64,000 nt of DNA from an archaeon (GTDB lineage Archaea > Aenigmatarchaeota > Aenigmatarchaeia > QMZP01 > JAFGSV01), in the NCBI GenBank assembly GCA_028279705.1, contig JANQNF010000001.1, forward strand, positions 1 to 64,000, in the 5' to 3' direction. The notes beneath the pieces were generated by a model. That model did no database searches. It saw nothing but the letters and a program-made list of their open reading frames with translations, and was not told the DNA's origin. The stretch's first letter is position 1; each line of letters opens with the position of its first letter. Positions 13,684 to 56,475 of the stretch are shown here, piece after piece. Position numbers and translations under genes: made by a program.

Positions 13684-16299
13684 ATGGCATACAAGAGGTA
13701 TATACGGAAAAACGGGAAGCTTTACGGACCATACCTATACAAGAGTGTAAGGGACAAGAAAGGCAACGTCCGTAACATCTATGTCGGTCGCGGCAGTGAA
13801 CAGAAAAGGGCAAGCATACTTGACATCTTCCAGAGGGCACTTCTCCCGTTCACTTCAAGGAACGGCAAGGTGGCTGCCCTCTTCATACTGGCTTTCATAT
13901 CTACAACGCTGCTTCTTGCAGGTATTGGCAGCGCCGTGTTCGACAGGCTTACGGTGCAGGGTCAGCTCCGGGACAGCAGTAACGAGATACTTTCCGGGAA
14001 TTACAATTTTTCCTTCAACATCTATGCCCAGGCCACCGGAGGCACGAGCCTTTTCGAGCAGAACTTCACGGACCTCATTGTCGATTCCAACGGCATCTAC
14101 ACCGCGACGCTGACGGATATAAGCCTACCGTTCAGCCAGAATTACTACCTCGGCGTCAATGTCGACAGTGACGGTGAGATGCTTCCGAGGATGAACATCA
14201 CAGACACGGGAACAGCTTTCAGAAGCAATCGTTCTGAATACCTTGGCGCGAACCTGCCTTCATATTTCCTCAATACGTCGACAGAAACCCAGACCACAGG
14301 CGGAAGCTTCGTAGTCACTGGTAATTTCACGGTGAATACTGACACGTTTGTTATAGACACATCTGTTGCCAGAATAGGAATAGGTACTTCATCACCAAAT
14401 GCCAGTCTTCATGTTAATGGAAGCTTTCTTCAGACTCATATGTCACCAACAGCCATAGGAAACATAACTGACGACAGCAAGGGCGGACCTGCACCAAGCC
14501 TTAATGGTGCATATGATGTATTTGTCTCAGGCAAGTATGCTTATGTTGCATCTTGGGGTGATCATGCTCTTCAGATAATAGACATCTCAGATCCAAGTAA
14601 CCCAACAGCCATAGGAAACATAACTGACGACAGCGTCGGCGGTCCCGCACCAAGTCTTGCTGGTGCAAACGGTGTATATGTCTCAGGCAAATATGCTTAT
14701 GTTGCATCTTATTCAGACTCCGCTCTGCAGATAATAGACATCTCAGATCCAAGTAACCCAACAGCCATAGGAAACATAACTGACGACAGCAAGGGCGGAC
14801 CTGCACCAAGTCTTGCTGGTGCAAACGGTGTATATGTCTCAGGAAAGTATGCATATGTTGCATCCAAAGGTGACGACGCCCTGCAGATAATAGACATCTC
14901 AGATCCAAGTAACCCAACAGCCATAGGAAACATAACTGACGACAGCGTCGGCGGACCTGCACCAAGCCTTAATAATGCACGAAGTGTATATGTATCAGGA
15001 AAGTATGCTTATGTTGCATCTTGGGATGATGACTCTCTTCAAATAATAGACATAGGAGGAATAGATGCACCTGCTGCAACAATTGGAGACCTTGCAGTCG
15101 GAACACTTGATGTTTGGGAGAACGCTGATATTGCAAATGATCTTTCTGTCGGTTCAGGTCTTGTAGTTGGTCCAGGTGGCATATACTCTCAGGGTGATGT
15201 TGCAATTAACGGTTCCATAAACGTGACCTCAGGTAATGATGTCTGCATAGTAGGTGGCAACTGCCTGAGCACGCTTTCTGGTGGAAGCGGAGGTAACACA
15301 ACAGCAGAAGTAAGAGCTGCAATAAACGGATCAGATTCATGGTTTACGAGCATTGGGATAGGAACAGCTACTCCAAGCCAAAAGCTACAAGTTTCAGATG
15401 GAAGTATATTATTGTCAGACGGATATTCGATATACTGGGATTCTACTTCAAATGGAATCAATTATGACACAACTAATGGCTTTAGATTTTATAATGGTGG
15501 TGAGATAGACCAGCAGTTTAAAGCTGACGGGGAAGCTTATCTAGGTCTTAATGGCAATGTGGGAATAGGGACAACATCACCTACATACAAGCTCGAAATA
15601 AACTCAACAGATAACGCTCTTAATGTTTCCAATTTTCTTTTTGCTAACTCGACAAGAGTTGGGATAGGAACAGCGAATCCATCAACCGCTTTAGGTGTTT
15701 CAGGAAACATAACATCATCAGATAGCGTCATAGTCACAACTGGAATATCCATTGGCGGTGATTACAGAACAGAGTGGCCTACAGGCACCGGAAACACGTC
15801 CGCGGAAATGATAGCTGCAACTAATAACACTGCTCATTGGAATGCTTCAAGGATACAGGGATCAACTGAATTGTGTATAGGAACTGACTGTAAGAGTAGC
15901 TGGTCATCTGTAGGTATAAACAGGACATTGTACTTCAATAAAACTGCTGAAACCTATACAGGAGAACTGAGTGCGGGCGGATATACCGGGTATGAAGCAG
16001 GCGATTACATCTGCGATTCTAACTTCACGGGAACGCACCTGTGCCAGGAGTATGAGATAGTGCAGACCATGACATACAAGAACATAAGCGAGATAGACGA
16101 CTGGGACGGATATGCATGGTATTCATCTGGCGGTCCCAAGTACACAGGAGCGTCGCCTGCAAACGACTGCAACGGCTTCACTGACGGGACGGCAAGCTAT
16201 CTTGGATCGTTCTGGAAATTCAACCAGACAGGGGGAGGTTCGGGTGCCATGGTAAACTGCGCGGAACTGAAGAGCCTGGCATGCTGCAAGGCGTGGTGA
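13684..16299 (+). CDS. Membrane-anchored surface protein with LVIVD propeller and tail-fibre-like VGIGT repeats
   Basis: 871 residues. A basic cytoplasmic N-terminus (MAYKRYIRKNGKLYGPYLYK) is followed by one membrane span (about residues 60-83). The outside part has a beta-rich domain, four LVIVD repeats of 52-53 residues (SGKYAYVAS..LQIIDISDPSNPT) that form propeller blades, and several VGIGTxxPxxxL motifs as in phage tail fibres. A Cys-containing C-terminal domain (CDSNFTGTHLCQEYEI, ANDCNGFTDGT, LACCKAW) has a lectin-like Cys/Trp pattern. No enzyme site is seen, so binding or adhesion is likely. It lies 4 bases upstream of a second protein built from the same modules. Confidence 0.85.
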   Translation: MAYKRYIRKNGKLYGPYLYKSVRDKKGNVRNIYVGRGSEQKRASILDIFQRALLPFTSRNGKVAALFILAFISTTLLLAGIGSAVFDRLTVQGQLRDSSNEILSGNYNFSFNIYAQATGGTSLFEQNFTDLIVDSNGIYTATLTDISLPFSQNYYLGVNVDSDGEMLPRMNITDTGTAFRSNRSEYLGANLPSYFLNTSTETQTTGGSFVVTGNFTVNTDTFVIDTSVARIGIGTSSPNASLHVNGSFLQTHMSPTAIGNITDDSKGGPAPSLNGAYDVFVSGKYAYVASWGDHALQIIDISDPSNPTAIGNITDDSVGGPAPSLAGANGVYVSGKYAYVASYSDSALQIIDISDPSNPTAIGNITDDSKGGPAPSLAGANGVYVSGKYAYVASKGDDALQIIDISDPSNPTAIGNITDDSVGGPAPSLNNARSVYVSGKYAYVASWDDDSLQIIDIGGIDAPAATIGDLAVGTLDVWENADIANDLSVGSGLVVGPGGIYSQGDVAINGSINVTSGNDVCIVGGNCLSTLSGGSGGNTTAEVRAAINGSDSWFTSIGIGTATPSQKLQVSDGSILLSDGYSIYWDSTSNGINYDTTNGFRFYNGGEIDQQFKADGEAYLGLNGNVGIGTTSPTYKLEINSTDNALNVSNFLFANSTRVGIGTANPSTALGVSGNITSSDSVIVTTGISIGGDYRTEWPTGTGNTSAEMIAATNNTAHWNASRIQGSTELCIGTDCKSSWSSVGINRTLYFNKTAETYTGELSAGGYTGYEAGDYICDSNFTGTHLCQEYEIVQTMTYKNISEIDDWDGYAWYSSGGPKYTGASPANDCNGFTDGTASYLGSFWKFNQTGGGSGAMVNCAELKSLACCKAW
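14446..15060 (+). repeat. Four LVIVD coding repeats, 156-159 bases each
   Basis: Nearly identical tandem units begin at about 14446, 14605, 14761 and 14920, each opening with the codons for TAIGNITDDS. Most identity is at DNA level. Differences cluster in the two blade-edge segments. Confidence 0.85.
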
Positions 16300-19300: not shown

Positions 19301-21325
19301 TCAGGCTCGAACGTTGAAGCATTGAGAATAGATGAAGATGGATACGTTGGCATAGGTACAACAAGTCCTAGTGCTGAATTAGAAATATCATCTGATGGAG
19401 ATGGTTTAATAATAACTGATAGTGGTGATAGTGAAAATTTAAGAGCGGAATTAAAGGATTCAGCTGGTAATGGAGGATATTTCAGATTATACGATGATTC
19501 TGAGACTATTACAGCTTTTATTAGAAGTTATGCTGTTAGTGATGTTCAAGCTTTTTTCACCGCAGGTAACGTCGGCATAGGGACGACGAGTCCTCAAGAC
19601 AAACTGCAAGTCGAGGGAGGGCTTTTGCTCAATGCATCTTCCACAGGCAATCCTTCGGGTATAGGCGAATCTTTGCAGATAAGGTATGATTCAGGTTATG
19701 ACGCAGGTAACGTTCGTTCAAGGGACTGGGATGCTGCAGCATGGAAACCTTTGGTTTTCGAGGCACTGAACTACACATTTTATGCAGGTGGCACAGATAC
19801 GATGGTTATCCAAGACGGCAAGGTCGGCATAGGGACGTCGAGTCCTGCTCATAAGTTCAGTGTGAGCATAGAAGATGATTATGATGGTATCTCCATGTAC
19901 AGGGGTGGAACACCATTATTCCTAGTTCAAAAGTCCGGTGCTGTGGAAAACACGTCCTACTTATCTATGAACAGCCTGGGTTCCACGACCGTGAGGATTC
20001 ATGCAAACGGCAGCTCATATTTCAATGCTGGCAACGTAGGAATCGGGACATCGAACCCGAGTGGGATATTCCACATAGTAAGAAACACTAGCAGGGACGC
20101 GTTTATCAGGATAGAAAGCAATAACTCGGATAGCTGGACTTTTGGGACATATGATTTTGCCGGCGACAGCGACAGCGACTTCTACGTCAGCGGTGCCGGC
20201 GGCTCTTCCAACGCTCTTGTCATAAAGCGTGATACTGGAAACGTCGGCATAGGAGCGATTGACCCGAATGCGACTCTCGATGTGGGAGGCAGTGTCAGTG
20301 CTTCAGAAACTTACATTTTCAATGACGGCTCGACCCAATCAGTTGCCAGTATGCCTTCCGGGAATTCCTGGTACACATCCACAGCGTCATATAGCAGAGA
20401 GTTCAGCGTGCTCAGTCAGGAAAATGGCCCATGGGACTTATTCTTCAAACCCGACGGCACCAAGATGTACATACTCGGGGATGACGGCGACGAAGTTAAC
20501 GAATACGACCTGTCCACTCCATGGAACGTCTCCTCCGCATCATACGTTCAGCTGTTCAGTGTGGCTGGCCAGGAAACGACCCCGAGGGCCATGTCCTTCA
20601 AACCCGACGGCACCAAGATGTACGTCGTTGGCATCAGTAGCGGCGATGTGAACGAATACGACCTGTCCACTCCATGGAACGCCTCCTCCGCCTCCTTTAT
20701 ACAGGCTTTCGATGTGATTGGTGACGGCAATGGACCGGCTGGCCTGTCCTTCAAACCCGACGGCTCCAAGATGTATGTCCTGTCATACAGTGAAGATGAA
20801 GTTAACGAATACGACCTGTCCACTCCATGGAACGTCTCTTCCGCTTCCCACAATCAATTATTCAGCGTGGCACCCGATGTTGCAAACCCGAATGGCCTGT
20901 CCTTCAAACCCGACGGCACCAAGATGTACGTTCTTGACAATGACGATGACAACATACACGAATACGACCTTTCCGTGCCATGGAACGTCTCGTCCGCATA
21001 CTATAATCAAATCTTTTTCAACGTGGGAGCCGAGGACCAATATCCGACTTCACTGTCCTTCAAACCCGACGGTGTCAGGATGTATCTAATGGGAAATACA
21101 GGTAAGAGCGTGTATGAGTACGATCTGGGTCTTTACATCCCAGGCAACGTCGGCATAGGGACCCTGAACCCGTCCCAGAAACTTGAAGTTTCAAACAGCA
21201 CCTATGGGATAACTTTCGATCCACACGATGATTCATATTCCACCGCTGTCATCAATACCACCGGCGGAAGCAACCTGACTATACACAGCAGCGGCGGGAA
21301 CGTGATAATAAAGCTTGGTCAATAG
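16304..21325 (+). CDS. Secreted multi-propeller surface protein (LVIVD plus YncE-like repeats, VGIGT motifs)
   Basis: 1673 residues. An N-terminal signal peptide (MILAMLVAMAALSLSS..ASA, cut probably before QYW) leads to a Cys-rich region (to about residue 225). Then come VGIGT tail-fibre-like motifs, seven LVIVD repeats of exactly 48 residues (nt 17844-18830), the same VCIxGGNCLS module as the neighbour, more VGIGT motifs, and a second propeller of at least five 51-residue blades (FKPDGTKMYxxG..VNEYDLSTPWN, nt 20390-21130). It has no C-terminal anchor. Likely an extracellular binding protein attached through its neighbour or the envelope. Base composition shifts sharply inside the gene (AT-rich at 19110-19570). 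A hairpin overlaps its stop codon. Confidence 0.86.
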   Translation: MNDDIMMRMILAMLVAMAALSLSSQIASAQYWVNDPTDCPSVYQSQDCSPNDVCGYSDPTTYCYDTSSFSPPSATETSDSGDTNTALNGGFVLNCYAYDGSAPHCDNSGNFWCDRNDTCYSVNRQTNCTGGSWGLSECHTCRSGYTYCDGLYTDADGCEVQIGVTDCSGGANNTINSTCGCECDSGYYDCDSSGAGAGNGCEILNGSECTDGGTGLPGTWNGPTCTCEIDKSYFETGTLTKYSTTDPLLWGLQASTGYMMNLSNGTADFIIDNDGCIRFNDTTTQCTASIGGGGNTTDEMRAAINGSDSWFTSVGIGTETATAPLTVQTNSNGDSIRTLGRASDDINQILFLSNSGSIRSKIKAGDYLSFFVDGNEAAGSESFHINSSGSVGIGTTSPESILHLKDSDTHITLESTGVGDASYGFFEVKDAGGDTMGFAGFDSGVNSDFTIRTYDVSDGIDFQTDGSNSRMYISQSGNVGIGTLDPNSKFDLQGNASIKGDIFQNATVPVHAGAIEDGGSVALGSAYRVQVSGKYAYVVAETGNALEIIDISDPSNPTHVGAIIDGDPVKLGGARSVHVSGKYAYVPAYDDDALEIIDISDPSNPTHAGALVDGGSVSLDRPTSLYVSGKYAYVTVYGDNSLTVVDISDPSSPFQAGIIIDGDPVKLFRPYDVYVSGEYAYVAVYGDNAMEIVNVTDPTNPTHAGAIEDGDPVKLGGAYAIYVSDGYAYVASYSDSALEIINVSDPTNPTHAGAIEDGDPVKLGGASGVHVSGKYAYVSSYSDSAVEFVDISDPSNPTHVGAIVDGDPVKLSGARDIYVSGTHAYVASDTDNALEILSITGTDLPAAVIGTVTTGSLNVWEDVQIANDLSVGSGVTVGPRGIYSQGQVAVDGSVNVTSGNNVCIEGGNCLSEIFTNGTDAWFTSVGVGTSSPDHLLEISDSSTGAMQALKISNAQGSSGDSADINFEIGNSAGRGAEIVAERQGTDGVDLVFKTITNIGSGSNVEALRIDEDGYVGIGTTSPSAELEISSDGDGLIITDSGDSENLRAELKDSAGNGGYFRLYDDSETITAFIRSYAVSDVQAFFTAGNVGIGTTSPQDKLQVEGGLLLNASSTGNPSGIGESLQIRYDSGYDAGNVRSRDWDAAAWKPLVFEALNYTFYAGGTDTMVIQDGKVGIGTSSPAHKFSVSIEDDYDGISMYRGGTPLFLVQKSGAVENTSYLSMNSLGSTTVRIHANGSSYFNAGNVGIGTSNPSGIFHIVRNTSRDAFIRIESNNSDSWTFGTYDFAGDSDSDFYVSGAGGSSNALVIKRDTGNVGIGAIDPNATLDVGGSVSASETYIFNDGSTQSVASMPSGNSWYTSTASYSREFSVLSQENGPWDLFFKPDGTKMYILGDDGDEVNEYDLSTPWNVSSASYVQLFSVAGQETTPRAMSFKPDGTKMYVVGISSGDVNEYDLSTPWNASSASFIQAFDVIGDGNGPAGLSFKPDGSKMYVLSYSEDEVNEYDLSTPWNVSSASHNQLFSVAPDVANPNGLSFKPDGTKMYVLDNDDDNIHEYDLSVPWNVSSAYYNQIFFNVGAEDQYPTSLSFKPDGVRMYLMGNTGKSVYEYDLGLYIPGNVGIGTLNPSQKLEVSNSTYGITFDPHDDSYSTAVINTTGGSNLTIHSSGGNVIIKLGQ
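17844..18830 (+). repeat. Seven LVIVD coding repeats, 144 bases each
   Basis: Units start at 17844, 17988, 18132, 18276, 18420, 18564 and 18708 with exact 144-base spacing, each opening with an AIxDGxPVKL-type codon run. Seven blades would close one beta-propeller. Confidence 0.88.
20390..21130 (+). repeat. Five YncE-like propeller coding repeats, 153-156 bases
   Basis: The segment coding SFKPDGTKMY recurs at 20444, 20597, 20750, 20903 and 21059. These are blades of a second propeller unrelated in sequence to the LVIVD block of the same gene. Confidence 0.85.
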
Positions 21326-47483: not shown

Positions 47484-50264
47484 ATGTTCAAGAAACCGGT
47501 ACTGATTCTGTTCATCCTCACGATACTGTTCGTGCCGATCAGCGTCATGAGCGAATCCATGGGAAGTTCCAGCTACAATGTCACCGGTATTGTCACGTCC
47601 GGTGGTTCAAACTCATCGAGTTCTGGTTACATGTCCCTCCATTACGTGCTCCCGGTCGCGGGGAACGCCTCATCGTCATCGTATGACACCACAGTCGGTC
47701 AGTTCTTTTCTTCGGGAGGTAACAGTGCACCGATTGTTTCATCAGTAACCCTGAATGCTACCACCGTATACAACTATTCTGCTGACAACCTCTTTGGATA
47801 CTGCAATGCAAGTGACGGCGACGGGGACCCTCTTTCCTACAAGTTCAAATGGTACAAGAATGGCGGAGTAAACATGAGCGGAACCCTTTTCAAGGGTGGT
47901 AGTGTGAGTGCTGGTGGCTATCACTCCTGCGGCATCCGCGCAAGTGACAGCCGCGTCCTCTGCTGGGGACAAAATAACAACGGTCAACTTGGCACTGGCA
48001 ACACAACGGACCAATCCAGTCCGACGTTGACTAGCGATTCCAGTGCATACATTAGTGTTTCTGCTTCAGATGAACACTCCTGCGGCATCCGCGCAAACGA
48101 CAGCCGCGTCCTCTGCTGGGGTAATGGAAACAATGGACGTCTTGGCACCGGCGATGTTTCACAGAGGTTAAACCCCACACTTATTGATGACACTTCTGCC
48201 TATTCTATGATTGCTACAGGATATGCATATCAGCACTCCTGCGGCATCCGCGCAAGTGACAGCCGCGTCCTCTGCTGGGGGAGAGGAACTAATGGCCGTT
48301 TGGGTAATGGTGATACTGTTCAACGAGAATCACCAACGCTAACGAGTGATAGCAGTGCGTATTCTTTTATTGAAGTGGGCGCTGCTTTTTCCTGCGGCAT
48401 CCGCGCAAGTGACAGCCGCGTCCTCTGCTGGGGACAAAATAACAACGGTCAACTTGGCACTGGCAACACAACTGACATGCATAATCCCACACTGATTAAC
48501 GATTCTTCTGCATATATTGACCTTGGCCTCGGTTTCGAGTTTGGATGCGGCATCCGCGCAAGTGACAGCCGCGTCCTCTGCTGGGGGGACGATCTTGAGG
48601 GATACTTGGGTAATGGTGCTGCAGGAGAAAGTAATAATCCTGTTTTGACTTCTGACCCTTCTGCATATTTAATCGTGAGTTCTGGACCGGTACATTCATG
48701 CGGCATCCGCGCAAACGACAGCCGCGTCCTCTGCTGGGGCAGTGGGAACAATGGCCGTTTGGGTGACGGTGGTACAGGTGTCAACTACGTCCCTACCTTA
48801 GTTAACGATTCTTCTTCTTATTTGGATGTTAGCGGTGGCCAGCACTCCTGCGGCATCCGCGCAAACGACAGCCGCGTCCTCTGCTGGGGACAAAACGCTG
48901 ATGGTCAGCTGGGACTAGGAAATGAGGATTCACCGGTTCTTAACCCGTCGTTGACAGTTGATCCCGGTTCTTATACTGTTAGTCGTATTGATAATTTGTC
49001 CTCCATCGGTCCCTATTACCATTTCAACTACATGGACATGCTTGCGAGTGTTTTCGCACCCATTGATACTTTTGTTGACGACGAGTTTATATTCAGCTGC
49101 ATGGTCAGCGATGGTCTACTTAATAGCATTTGGGTGAACAGCAGTGCTGTCATGATTATCAGTACGCCTCCCGTCGTGTCGTCTGTGAGAATATCACCCG
49201 ATCCTGCGACAGCGACCGACACGCTTGAGGGCCACTGTACAGCAACAGATTATGATGCAGATAACGTTTCATATCACTGGAAATGGTACAAGGACGATGT
49301 CCTCAATGAGAGCGGGAGCGAGGTTCACGCGATCACTAACCATACTCAGGGAACCGAAGTTAATGTCGACAATCTCACTTCAGGCATACAGTCTTTTGGA
49401 GAGAACTGGACGTTTTCATGCCTCGCCTATGACGGGACTTCCAACTCGACTTTATGGTCAAACTATTCCGTAATCATAAATACACCCCCGGACAAGATAG
49501 TCTTGTCAGCACCTGAAAGCGGAAACACCACAACTAACAGGTCCCCTATGTTCAGCTGGGTCGAGGGCACTGATGGCGAGGCAGATCCACTTACCTATTA
49601 CCTGAATCTCACATGCGGGTACTCGGGGGGAGGCACGGACTGCTCGGACGATAACAGTGAGACAGTGGTAGAAGAAGGCAACTGTACCGGTGATGGTTTC
49701 TGCAATTTCACGGTTCCCTTCGAACTGAAATATTTCGGGGATGACAACTACTACTACAACTGGACCGTGCGGGCTTATGACCAGAATCAATACGGCCAGT
49801 GGAGTGACGTTTGGAACATAACCATATACACGAGCGTGGTCATAACGCTTTACAATGACAGCATGCAGTTCGGCGTCATAGGCCCCGGTCAAAACAACGA
49901 TACTTCAGACGACAGTCCCGAACCTTTCAAGATAAGGAATGACGGCAACTGTTTTGTCGACATCAACATATCATCGACTGACCTGTTGTGGGATTCCCAG
50001 CCTACTGCATCTGATTATTTCAGGTACATGGTAGACAACGTCACAGGCGAGGAGAATTCGCTCAACTGGTCGAGCCAGAACACCACTTCGTCATGGACAC
50101 CCATACCGGTGGTCAACGGCTCTGCAATGTCATTTTTCAATTATTCGGACGCAACGGACGAGGCAGAGATAGAGGTTTACATTTCGGTTCCCACGGGTGA
50201 AATGGCTGGCATAAAGACATCGACTATGTGGTTCACTGCAGGATACAATAGTGAGTATGAATGA
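47484..50264 (+). CDS. Secreted protein with an RCC1-type propeller inserted in an Ig-like domain
   Basis: 926 residues. A signal peptide (residues 1-23) is followed by an Ig-like domain that starts with YCNASDGDGDPLSYKFKWYKN. It is interrupted after residue 135 by seven RCC1-like blades, each with CGIRAxDSRVLCWG and NNGxLGxGxxxxxxxP, and resumes near 515 with FIFSCMVSDGLLNSIW. A second uninterrupted Ig domain (YHWKWYKDD..WTFSCLAYDG) shows what the first looks like without the insert. A third Ig-like domain and a C-terminal FGVIGPG/NDGN beta-sandwich follow, the latter shared with the 55206 and 55852 proteins. There is no anchor in the chain itself. Extracellular binding is likely. The stop overlaps the next gene. 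Confidence 0.86.
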   Translation: MFKKPVLILFILTILFVPISVMSESMGSSSYNVTGIVTSGGSNSSSSGYMSLHYVLPVAGNASSSSYDTTVGQFFSSGGNSAPIVSSVTLNATTVYNYSADNLFGYCNASDGDGDPLSYKFKWYKNGGVNMSGTLFKGGSVSAGGYHSCGIRASDSRVLCWGQNNNGQLGTGNTTDQSSPTLTSDSSAYISVSASDEHSCGIRANDSRVLCWGNGNNGRLGTGDVSQRLNPTLIDDTSAYSMIATGYAYQHSCGIRASDSRVLCWGRGTNGRLGNGDTVQRESPTLTSDSSAYSFIEVGAAFSCGIRASDSRVLCWGQNNNGQLGTGNTTDMHNPTLINDSSAYIDLGLGFEFGCGIRASDSRVLCWGDDLEGYLGNGAAGESNNPVLTSDPSAYLIVSSGPVHSCGIRANDSRVLCWGSGNNGRLGDGGTGVNYVPTLVNDSSSYLDVSGGQHSCGIRANDSRVLCWGQNADGQLGLGNEDSPVLNPSLTVDPGSYTVSRIDNLSSIGPYYHFNYMDMLASVFAPIDTFVDDEFIFSCMVSDGLLNSIWVNSSAVMIISTPPVVSSVRISPDPATATDTLEGHCTATDYDADNVSYHWKWYKDDVLNESGSEVHAITNHTQGTEVNVDNLTSGIQSFGENWTFSCLAYDGTSNSTLWSNYSVIINTPPDKIVLSAPESGNTTTNRSPMFSWVEGTDGEADPLTYYLNLTCGYSGGGTDCSDDNSETVVEEGNCTGDGFCNFTVPFELKYFGDDNYYYNWTVRAYDQNQYGQWSDVWNITIYTSVVITLYNDSMQFGVIGPGQNNDTSDDSPEPFKIRNDGNCFVDINISSTDLLWDSQPTASDYFRYMVDNVTGEENSLNWSSQNTTSSWTPIPVVNGSAMSFFNYSDATDEAEIEVYISVPTGEMAGIKTSTMWFTAGYNSEYE
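47915..48900 (+). repeat. Seven RCC1 blade repeats with invariant 40-base cores
   Basis: A GC-rich core starting tgcggcatccgcgcaa recurs seven times, every 152-159 bases. The cores differ only at the agt/aac codon and at their ends, while the stretches between them are AT-richer and strongly diverged. Confidence 0.9.
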
Positions 50265-54976: not shown

Positions 54977-55204
54977 ATGGCTCAATCTACAAAAAATCTG
55001 CTGGCTATATTACTTCTGATTACTATGATAATCTCCTTCATGGGAACACTGGCTGCCATATCATCTCTCATAAATTACAGGCAGGTTCCCGTGAGCGCGG
55101 ATACGGGCCAATCAGTCGGGAAGGTTTCCGTTTATGTCACGCCTGCACCACCCGAAGTAACGGGAAAGGTCACTGTTAATTTAGAATCAATGGATGGTGG
55201 ATAG
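54977..55204 (+). CDS. Short single-span membrane protein
   Basis: 75 residues. One N-terminal span (LLAILLLITMIISFMGTLAAI) and a short outside tail with a PEVTGKVTVNL strand. The N-terminus resembles those of the two larger paralogues that follow (span with a GT segment), so it may be a short relative without the beta-sandwich. One base separates its stop from the next ATG at 55206, so the three are co-transcribed. Confidence 0.75.
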   Translation: MAQSTKNLLAILLLITMIISFMGTLAAISSLINYRQVPVSADTGQSVGKVSVYVTPAPPEVTGKVTVNLESMDGG

Positions 55205-55205
55205 A

Positions 55206-55829
55206 ATGGAATTATCTAACAACGCACTCATCGCGCTTGTTGTGGTGGCAATGGCGTTCAGTTTGGCAGGAACCATGACAATGATATCAATTATTCCGGG
55301 CGGTCCTTCAACTCTCACAGGCATGGACACGCTAACACAGACGGGTGTAGCAAACGTTACGCTGGCCACTGAGACTGCCATAATACTGGACGTATCTGTC
55401 GTTGATTTCGGAGATATAGCAGGTGCAGTGGGTACCCAGAACGATACCACCAACTACAGTCCTCACCCCTTCGTCATCCAGAACAACGGGACAGTTACCA
55501 TCAACATTTCCATAGCAGAGCAGAACGGATCCGGCGGAGAACTTTGGGACGAAGACAATAATTGTGAATACTGTTTCCAGTTCAACTCCACTCACAACGT
55601 GTCCGCTTCTGATGCCGTGGCATTCTACAACTGGAAGAACTTCGACACTACCAACTGGGCTGAAAATAATTCCGCAGGCGACGTCTATGCTGATGATGCC
55701 AACCTCGTATACAATCTTTCAGTCAGCGCTTATGCCAACGTGAACCTGAACATATCGGTTCCGTCAAGCGAGGGTGCGGGGCAGAAGACCGCGACGATCT
55801 TCTTCAAGGCATATGCATCCGCTTCATGA
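55206..55829 (+). CDS. Membrane-anchored beta-sandwich protein, tandem paralogue 1
   Basis: 207 residues. N-terminal span (NNALIALVVVAMAFSLAGTMTMIS), then a TGMDTLTQTG motif and a beta-sandwich: VVDFGDIAGAVGTQNDTTNYS, PHPFVIQNNGT, a CEYC pair with QFNSTHNVSASDAVAFYNW, and IFFKAYASAS at the end. It is rich in N-sequons. The same FG-I-G / NDGT pattern forms the last domain of the RCC1 protein. GGTGGAT at 55195-55201 marks the ATG at 55206, and the paralogue begins MEVSNN against MELSNN here. Probably an abundant surface or pilin-like subunit. Function unknown. Confidence 0.8.
   Translation: MELSNNALIALVVVAMAFSLAGTMTMISIIPGGPSTLTGMDTLTQTGVANVTLATETAIILDVSVVDFGDIAGAVGTQNDTTNYSPHPFVIQNNGTVTINISIAEQNGSGGELWDEDNNCEYCFQFNSTHNVSASDAVAFYNWKNFDTTNWAENNSAGDVYADDANLVYNLSVSAYANVNLNISVPSSEGAGQKTATIFFKAYASAS
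55571..55628 (+). repeat. 58-base perfect repeat, copy 1
   Basis: It codes the CFQFNSTHNVSASDAVAFY segment and is identical base for base to 56217-56274 in the tandem paralogue, while flanking sequence has diverged. Confidence 0.9.
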
Positions 55830-55851
55830 TTTATTATACTATGTGAGAGAC

Positions 55852-56475
55852 ATGGAAGTTTCAAACAACGTTCTTGCTGCATTGGCAATGGTTGTCATGG
55901 CAGTCAGTGTTGGCGGAACTGCCTCGATGCTTTCACTTTCAGTGCCTTCTTCCCAACCAGTTGAAATTACAGGTATGGACACACTCACACAGACGGGCAT
56001 TGCAAATGTTACACTTTCAGAGGAGACTGCCATAGAACTCGTCGTTCAGGTAGTAGACTTCGGTACAATAGCTGCGGCTACAGGCACCCAGAACGACACG
56101 ACCGACTATAGCCCGCACCCTTTCGTCATAAAGAACAATGGTTCGGTTGTTATCAATGTTTCAATTGCGGAATCCACCTCACAGGCGCTTTGGTCGCAGG
56201 ATAACGCATGCGAGCACTGTTTCCAGTTCAACTCCACTCACAACGTGTCCGCTTCTGATGCCGTGGCATTCTACGACTGGAGGCACTTCAACGAGACCTA
56301 CTGGGCTGAGAATGCAAGTGCCGGCGATGTCAATGCAGACACTGCGAATCTTGTCTACAACCTTTCGAATGGAGCATTCGCAAATGTCAACCTGAATATA
56401 ACAGTTCCGGCAAGCGAAAGTGCCGGATTGAAGACAGCAACGATCTTCTTCAAGGCATTCGCATCTGCTTCTTGA
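55852..56475 (+). CDS. Membrane-anchored beta-sandwich protein, tandem paralogue 2
   Basis: 207 residues, the same length as its neighbour at 55206 and the same plan: N-terminal span (LAALAMVVMAVSVGGTASML), TGMDTLTQTG, VVDFGTIAAATGTQNDTTDYS, PHPFVIKNNGS, CEHCFQFNSTHNVSASD and IFFKAFASAS. The frame is open upstream to 55774, but the ATG at 55852 matches the paralogue's start. A 58-base stretch is identical between the two genes. It lies 22 bases after paralogue 1. Confidence 0.8.
   Translation: MEVSNNVLAALAMVVMAVSVGGTASMLSLSVPSSQPVEITGMDTLTQTGIANVTLSEETAIELVVQVVDFGTIAAATGTQNDTTDYSPHPFVIKNNGSVVINVSIAESTSQALWSQDNACEHCFQFNSTHNVSASDAVAFYDWRHFNETYWAENASAGDVNADTANLVYNLSNGAFANVNLNITVPASESAGLKTATIFFKAFASAS
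56217..56274 (+). repeat. 58-base perfect repeat, copy 2
   Basis: Identical to 55571-55628. It is consistent with recent gene conversion between the tandem genes. Confidence 0.9.

Follow-up and report, generated by a model that had tools for sequence, protein, structure and literature searches.

A 41-nt core recurs in all seven blades of an RCC1 propeller, encoded in a surface-protein gene of an uncultured archaeon, with the same DNA throughout save for one dinucleotide, while the spacers between the cores are diverged, at synonymous sites up to saturation. Concerted evolution is here apparently limited to 41 nt per blade, with one-base edges, beside conserved residues with randomised codons. 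This is best explained by homology-limited gene conversion from blade to blade, which probably keeps the core identical. The features discussed (Table 1) lie in the window, the whole stretch of 64,000 nt that was analysed.

The RCC1 propeller gene and its locus

The 926-residue protein begins with what resembles a signal peptide and comprises seven RCC1 repeats together with Ig-like domains and a C-terminal module. Besides the two profiles given in Table 1 (with PF25390 over its cut-off), it matches the RCC1 repeat profile PF13540 (1.8e-35). The AlphaFold model closes the seven blades into a single propeller (pLDDT 94.5, pTM 0.92) with plant UVR8 as the best PDB match (TM-score 0.90); on this model, the product is an RCC1-repeat seven-bladed propeller. 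A eukaryotic RCC1 role (Ran exchange, chromatin) is unlikely for it, judging from the signal-peptide-like N terminus and the surface-protein neighbourhood. The core corresponds in every blade to the central beta-hairpin, made up in blade 1 of strands 15-20 and 26-30 in the modelled domain, and the spacer contributes a long loop, following CWG, and two strands. Each core carries two cysteines, on paired strands, and may form one disulfide per blade.

The propeller is apparently set within an Ig-like domain, whose halves on either side both match the intact neighbouring Ig-like domain. The full-length structure model is confident for the propeller and of low confidence for the flanking Ig parts, too uncertain to confirm a nested geometry.

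The central domain of this gene varies in related archaea, next to a conserved C-terminal module: it can be absent, RCC1, beta-helix/NosD or DUF2341/LamG. A species of the same genus (G001) has an orthologue without RCC1, in which the C-terminal module is present and the N terminus is related; the syntenic position is occupied by a beta-helix/NosD domain in the same family (G004) and by a DUF2341/LamG domain in the same order (G012). No orthologous RCC1 domain was found in the same genus or family. Since relatives differ in what they have at the syntenic position (RCC1 missing, a beta-helix, or LamG), the display domain itself is exchanged between species, and the comparison of relatives shows a recent gain or exchange of the propeller domain at this locus. 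Such swapping bears on surface diversification in small archaea.

Table 1. Coordinates of the propeller gene, its repeats and its neighbours in the window
Feature	Position	Strand	Basis or remark
Secreted surface protein gene, 926 aa, with RCC1 propeller	47484..50264	+	ORF; Pfam RCC1 PF00415 4e-47, WD40_RLD PF25390 1.4e-54
N-terminal part of Ig-like domain, apparently split by propeller	47733..47888	+	42% identity, E 3e-13, to positions 2-51 of intact second Ig-like domain
83-nt tract, blade 1 copy	47925..48007	+	Island scan; identical to 48390-48472; 13 codons past core identical
Core 1, AGT allele	47928..47968	+	Core sequence search
Six diverged spacers between cores	47969..48848	+	GC3 0.35 (all spacers) vs 0.55 expected
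Core 2, AAC allele	48081..48121	+	Core sequence search
Core 3, AGT allele	48240..48280	+	Core sequence search
83-nt tract, blade 4 copy	48390..48472	+	Island scan; identical to 47925-48007
Core 4, AGT allele	48393..48433	+	Core sequence search
Core 5, AGT allele	48546..48586	+	Core sequence search
Core 6, AAC allele	48699..48739	+	Core sequence search
Core 7, AAC allele	48849..48889	+	Core sequence search
C-terminal part of split Ig-like domain	49080..49154	+	38% identity, E 4e-5, to positions 79-104 of intact second Ig-like domain
Conserved C-terminal module, common to relatives without RCC1	49215..50261	+	Residues 578-926; 64% identity to G001 orthologue; homologous to G004, G012, G040
Conserved neighbour, 163 aa	50261..50752	+	Syntenic in four relatives
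Conserved neighbour, 436 aa	50709..52019	+	76% identity in G001, syntenic

Cores and spacers

The seven cores span 47928-48889 and read TGCGGCATCCGCGCAA[GT/AC]GACAGCCGCGTCCTCTGCTGGGG (41 nt, n = 7), with the AGT allele in blades 1, 3, 4 and 5, the AAC allele in blades 2, 6 and 7, and no intermediates between them. The core encodes CGIRA[S/N]DSRVLCW; no other nearly unbroken invariant stretch of a blade is as long. The spacers measure, in order, 112, 118, 112, 112, 112 and 109 nt. The GC content is 0.71 in the core vs. 0.43-0.50 in the spacers; a core GC of 27/39 is reached by 0.7% of random encodings. The low GC3 of the spacers (P = 2e-11) fits a foreign origin. Codon optimisation of the core was considered and rejected, the core not being the likeliest encoding (a random encoding is no likelier than the core in 32.5% of cases) and CGC and ATC, which it uses, being minor codons here.

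The twelve degenerate codon columns of the core are all monomorphic, with agreement in 240/240 blade pairs (codon identity of 1.0 vs. about 0.40 by chance). The spacers have the protein motifs GxLGxG, PxL and DxSxY in common, but with scrambled codons. Ten spacer columns keep one amino acid in six or all seven blades, and none of them is monomorphic (Fisher P = 1.5e-6 for 12/12 vs. 0/10); each holds two to five codons, and 66 of 204 pairs agree (0.32), chance agreement for these columns being 0.30-0.33. Values of dS are 0 within a core allele and 0.13 between alleles, against 1.2 to saturation in the spacers. Identity steps from 0.52 to 1.00 on entering the core and from 1.00 to 0.19 on leaving it, each within one base, and the edge falls inside the continuous motif CWGxxxxGxLGxG. 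The adjoining GxLGxG is conserved but separated by gaps, with no long uninterrupted identity, and its codons are not homogenised. Synonymous identity between the copies is thus far above expectation, a mark of concerted evolution by gene conversion.

The preliminary description had these features largely right, the pattern being even sharper than it stated. Its near-identical cores and diverged, AT-richer spacers are borne out, as are the roughly 40 GC-rich bases kept even at synonymous sites in seven copies. Its proposed check, the synonymous divergence of cores against spacers, has been run with the values above, and its view that protein constraint alone does not account for the codon identity is supported, the conserved residues directly beside the core having chance-level codons. 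The 110-115 bases said to lie between the cores and to share little were nearly right in length (109-118 nt); the protein motifs are nevertheless common to the spacers, and blades 1 and 4 share 39 nt past the core.

These shared bases belong to an 83-nt tract, identical in the non-adjacent blades 1 and 4 and with diverged sequence on both flanks (Table 1). The 13 identical codons past the core have a P of about 6e-5 by codon usage, after 21 pairs. Patchy tracts common to non-adjacent copies are a mark of gene conversion, observed here in one tract, which looks like one captured conversion event. The core alleles do not track spacer similarity: blade 3 joins blades 2 and 6 by the spacer motif NGRLG yet has the other allele.

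Other RCC1 genes and other repeats

The comparison was made over RCC1 genes of five or more blades (n = 28), among them a second RCC1 gene from this genome. The difference between core and spacer codon identity is 0.48 in the propeller gene, against a mean of 0.01 (sd 0.09) in the 27 others (z about 5), and homogenisation of the core only is seen in none of these 27. Across the other RCC1 genes, core amino-acid identity does not correlate with core homogenisation (Spearman 0.12, P = 0.55). The ordinary genes (the second gene of the genome and 26 others) have the same fold and repeat consensus; unlike in the propeller gene, their core and spacer codon identities are equal on average. The second gene (contig C3, 3267-6530, 14 blades) has codon identities of 0.45 in the core and 0.47 in the spacer. 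Its blades 3-4 and 11-12 are alike at 84% and 79%, a two-blade copy; with this patch at 0.84/0.79 identity, blade-level copying therefore occurs there too. It is flanked by two parts of a LamG-like domain; a Pfam match was obtained for the C-terminal one only, with profile positions 77-151 as best stretch.

In an RCC1-like gene of a related archaeon of the same class (G070), 23/34 conserved codon columns are monomorphic. The core codons are mostly monomorphic, as in the propeller gene; unlike there, so are the spacer codons, and the gene looks like a recent whole-blade duplication. For the propeller gene, a recent tandem duplication of a whole blade with fast diversifying selection on the loops afterwards would follow that precedent, but is extremely improbable: amino-acid selection has no means of scrambling the codons of conserved residues, and the spacer synonymous sites are at chance. 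With spacer synonymous sites saturated and cores without synonymous change, a common recent duplication and amino-acid selection alone are therefore both excluded.

The scan for islands of identity covered 442 kb of the genome. Other repeated genes also have identical stretches, but with flanks less diverged than at the RCC1 cores, where flank identity (about 0.38 and 0.46-0.50) is lower than in any other multi-pair group. Further repeats were noted in the window. A second propeller-like repeat (20401-21085; segments FKPDGTKMY ... NEYDLSTPWN, 153-nt period) has a weaker core effect, with 13/23 conserved columns monomorphic, the cores partly conserved in DNA and the spacers diverged. An 896-aa ORF contains LVIVD repeats (14446-15053; 156-nt period, units about 85% identical). 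Two adjacent paralogous secreted proteins (55194-56475) have a 291-nt stretch in common at 76%, with an exact block of 59 nt.

Maintenance of the core

Homology-dependent gene conversion requires a stretch of near-identity. In the proposed mechanism, the invariant central hairpin of the blades would stay similar enough in DNA for homologous recombination from blade to blade, and the remainder of each blade would diverge beyond the homology limit and then drop out of recombination. The core would stay above that limit because it encodes the longest nearly uninterrupted invariant peptide block, the spacer motifs, broken by variable residues, falling below it. Repeated short conversions would hold the 41 nt identical and spread or fix one of the two core alleles, the spacers would evolve independently up to synonymous saturation, and occasional longer tracts may carry part of a spacer as well, as in blades 1 and 4.

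A first toy simulation, at low conversion rates, gave no clear islands. In the toy model of homology-dependent conversion, with rates and homology limit set by hand (plausibility, not proof), identity is 0.84-0.89 in the core and 0.30 in conserved spacer columns if the cores begin identical. Cores begun diverged do not become homogenised, and so identical cores are a necessary starting point. For bacteria, there is a proposal of GC-biased conversion (PMC4450053); a biased conversion would fit the GC-rich core of this one sequence, which could also have an unrelated cause. Against conversion count this dependence on the starting state, the single genome behind the evidence, the one long tract, which is one event, the missing correlation of core amino-acid identity with homogenisation in the other RCC1 genes, and the sharp shared edges, which are expected from selection on the core DNA too.

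Such selection, on the DNA or RNA itself (a binding site, a recombination site, an RNA structure or a translation signal), would also agree with seven identical copies and with unusual, GC-rich codons. It is unlikely on several grounds. No significant RNA fold is present (z from -0.62 to +0.66), the Rfam search gave no match, and the genome has no further copy of the core; a degenerate pattern of the core had no match in 156 genomes of the phylum, and viral contigs had none of the core DNA. Further, the edges match those of the invariant peptide block and one pair of positions accepts two alleles. We infer that core identity is kept up by gene conversion and not by selection on the DNA sequence itself.

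Programmed variation is the other use to which identical cores could be put: they would be recombination anchors, through which alleles or cells exchange spacer cassettes and so vary the propeller surface, in the manner of the conserved cys regions of Neisseria pilin. By analogy, a conserved core with two cysteines beside variable loops resembles the cys1/cys2 layout of pilin; the breakpoint of blades 1 and 4 is close to the left end of the core, and the surface-protein locus swaps whole domains between species. This is quite unlikely all the same, with a single recombinant tract found, seven blades that close one propeller with little space for insertions, and no silent copies in the assembled genome (92% complete), where the search gave no further core at up to 3 mismatches and no copy of either core half. 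Equally doubtful would be a 41-bp core acting as a built-in recombination anchor, with spacer segments swapped between blades or population alleles without silent cassettes; if true, it would make a self-contained variable binding surface on an archaeal propeller. A dedicated variation mechanism is possible, unsupported by donor copies. Of the two mechanisms put forward in the preliminary description, conversion anchored on the cores thus survives as the most likely explanation, and one 83-nt tract looks like a captured instance of it. The shuffling of cassettes to vary a binding surface is much the less likely: besides the missing silent copies, the closed propeller leaves little freedom in blade number, and exchange is seen only between species, at the level of whole domains.

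A diversity-generating retroelement (DGR) is present on contig C75 of the same genome (14806-17476), with an Avd-RT fusion, a template and a variable repeat, 15/15 mismatches at template adenines in an 81-nt block, and a 289-aa target protein. That a DGR mutagenised the spacers is, despite its presence, hardly credible: a template for the core or spacers occurs nowhere else in the genome, 6/26 variable post-core columns are without any A, and the real target is on another contig, with only template-A mismatches in the aligned block. The propeller gene was rejected as a DGR target, as it lacks adenine-specific differences from the template repeat; the C75 element is unrelated to it.

An artefact of metagenome assembly or read correction has to be considered for repeats in a metagenome-assembled genome with eukaryote-like contigs in the bin. 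It is very improbable, given an open frame of 926 codons, seven full blades modelling as one closed propeller, and neighbours syntenic with relatives; error correction would not make saturated synonymous sites identical over only 41 nt. The window belongs to an archaeal genome, since it encodes archaeal Dph2, FBP aldolase/phosphatase and HMG-CoA reductase; the 16S match to the archaeal model on contig C3 is not specific by itself. Eukaryote-type retroelement ORFs (Ty3/gypsy-like, LINE-like) occur on contigs C38 and C21 of the bin. These contigs are probable contamination; the bin is rated 0.35% contaminated, however, and has about double the size of its congeners.

Relation to known systems

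Concerted evolution of propeller repeats usually spans whole repeats. Maintained by conversion between blades, the archaeal gene would be a natural gauge of the homology limit for intragenic recombination in an uncultured archaeon; it is also a direct test case for islands of DNA identity, either as by-products of conversion or as anchors for variation.

In the WD40 propellers of fungal NWD/HNWD NLR proteins (HET-D and HET-E of Podospora anserina), identity of 80-100% extends over whole repeats, and the number of blades is variable (PMC12222747). Propeller repeats homogenised by recombination, with some variable sites, are common to both systems; in the archaeal gene, however, which encodes a secreted RCC1 and not a WD40 protein, only 41 of about 153 nt are homogenised and the remainder is saturated. 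In the antigenic variation of Neisseria pilin (pilE/pilS), conserved cys1 and cys2 regions flank hypervariable loops and the donors are separate silent copies (PMC12108084). Conserved DNA blocks encoding cysteine segments beside variable loops are again a common point, and pilin varies by gene conversion. In the archaeon, by contrast, all copies of the core lie within one gene, without silent donors in the assembled genome.
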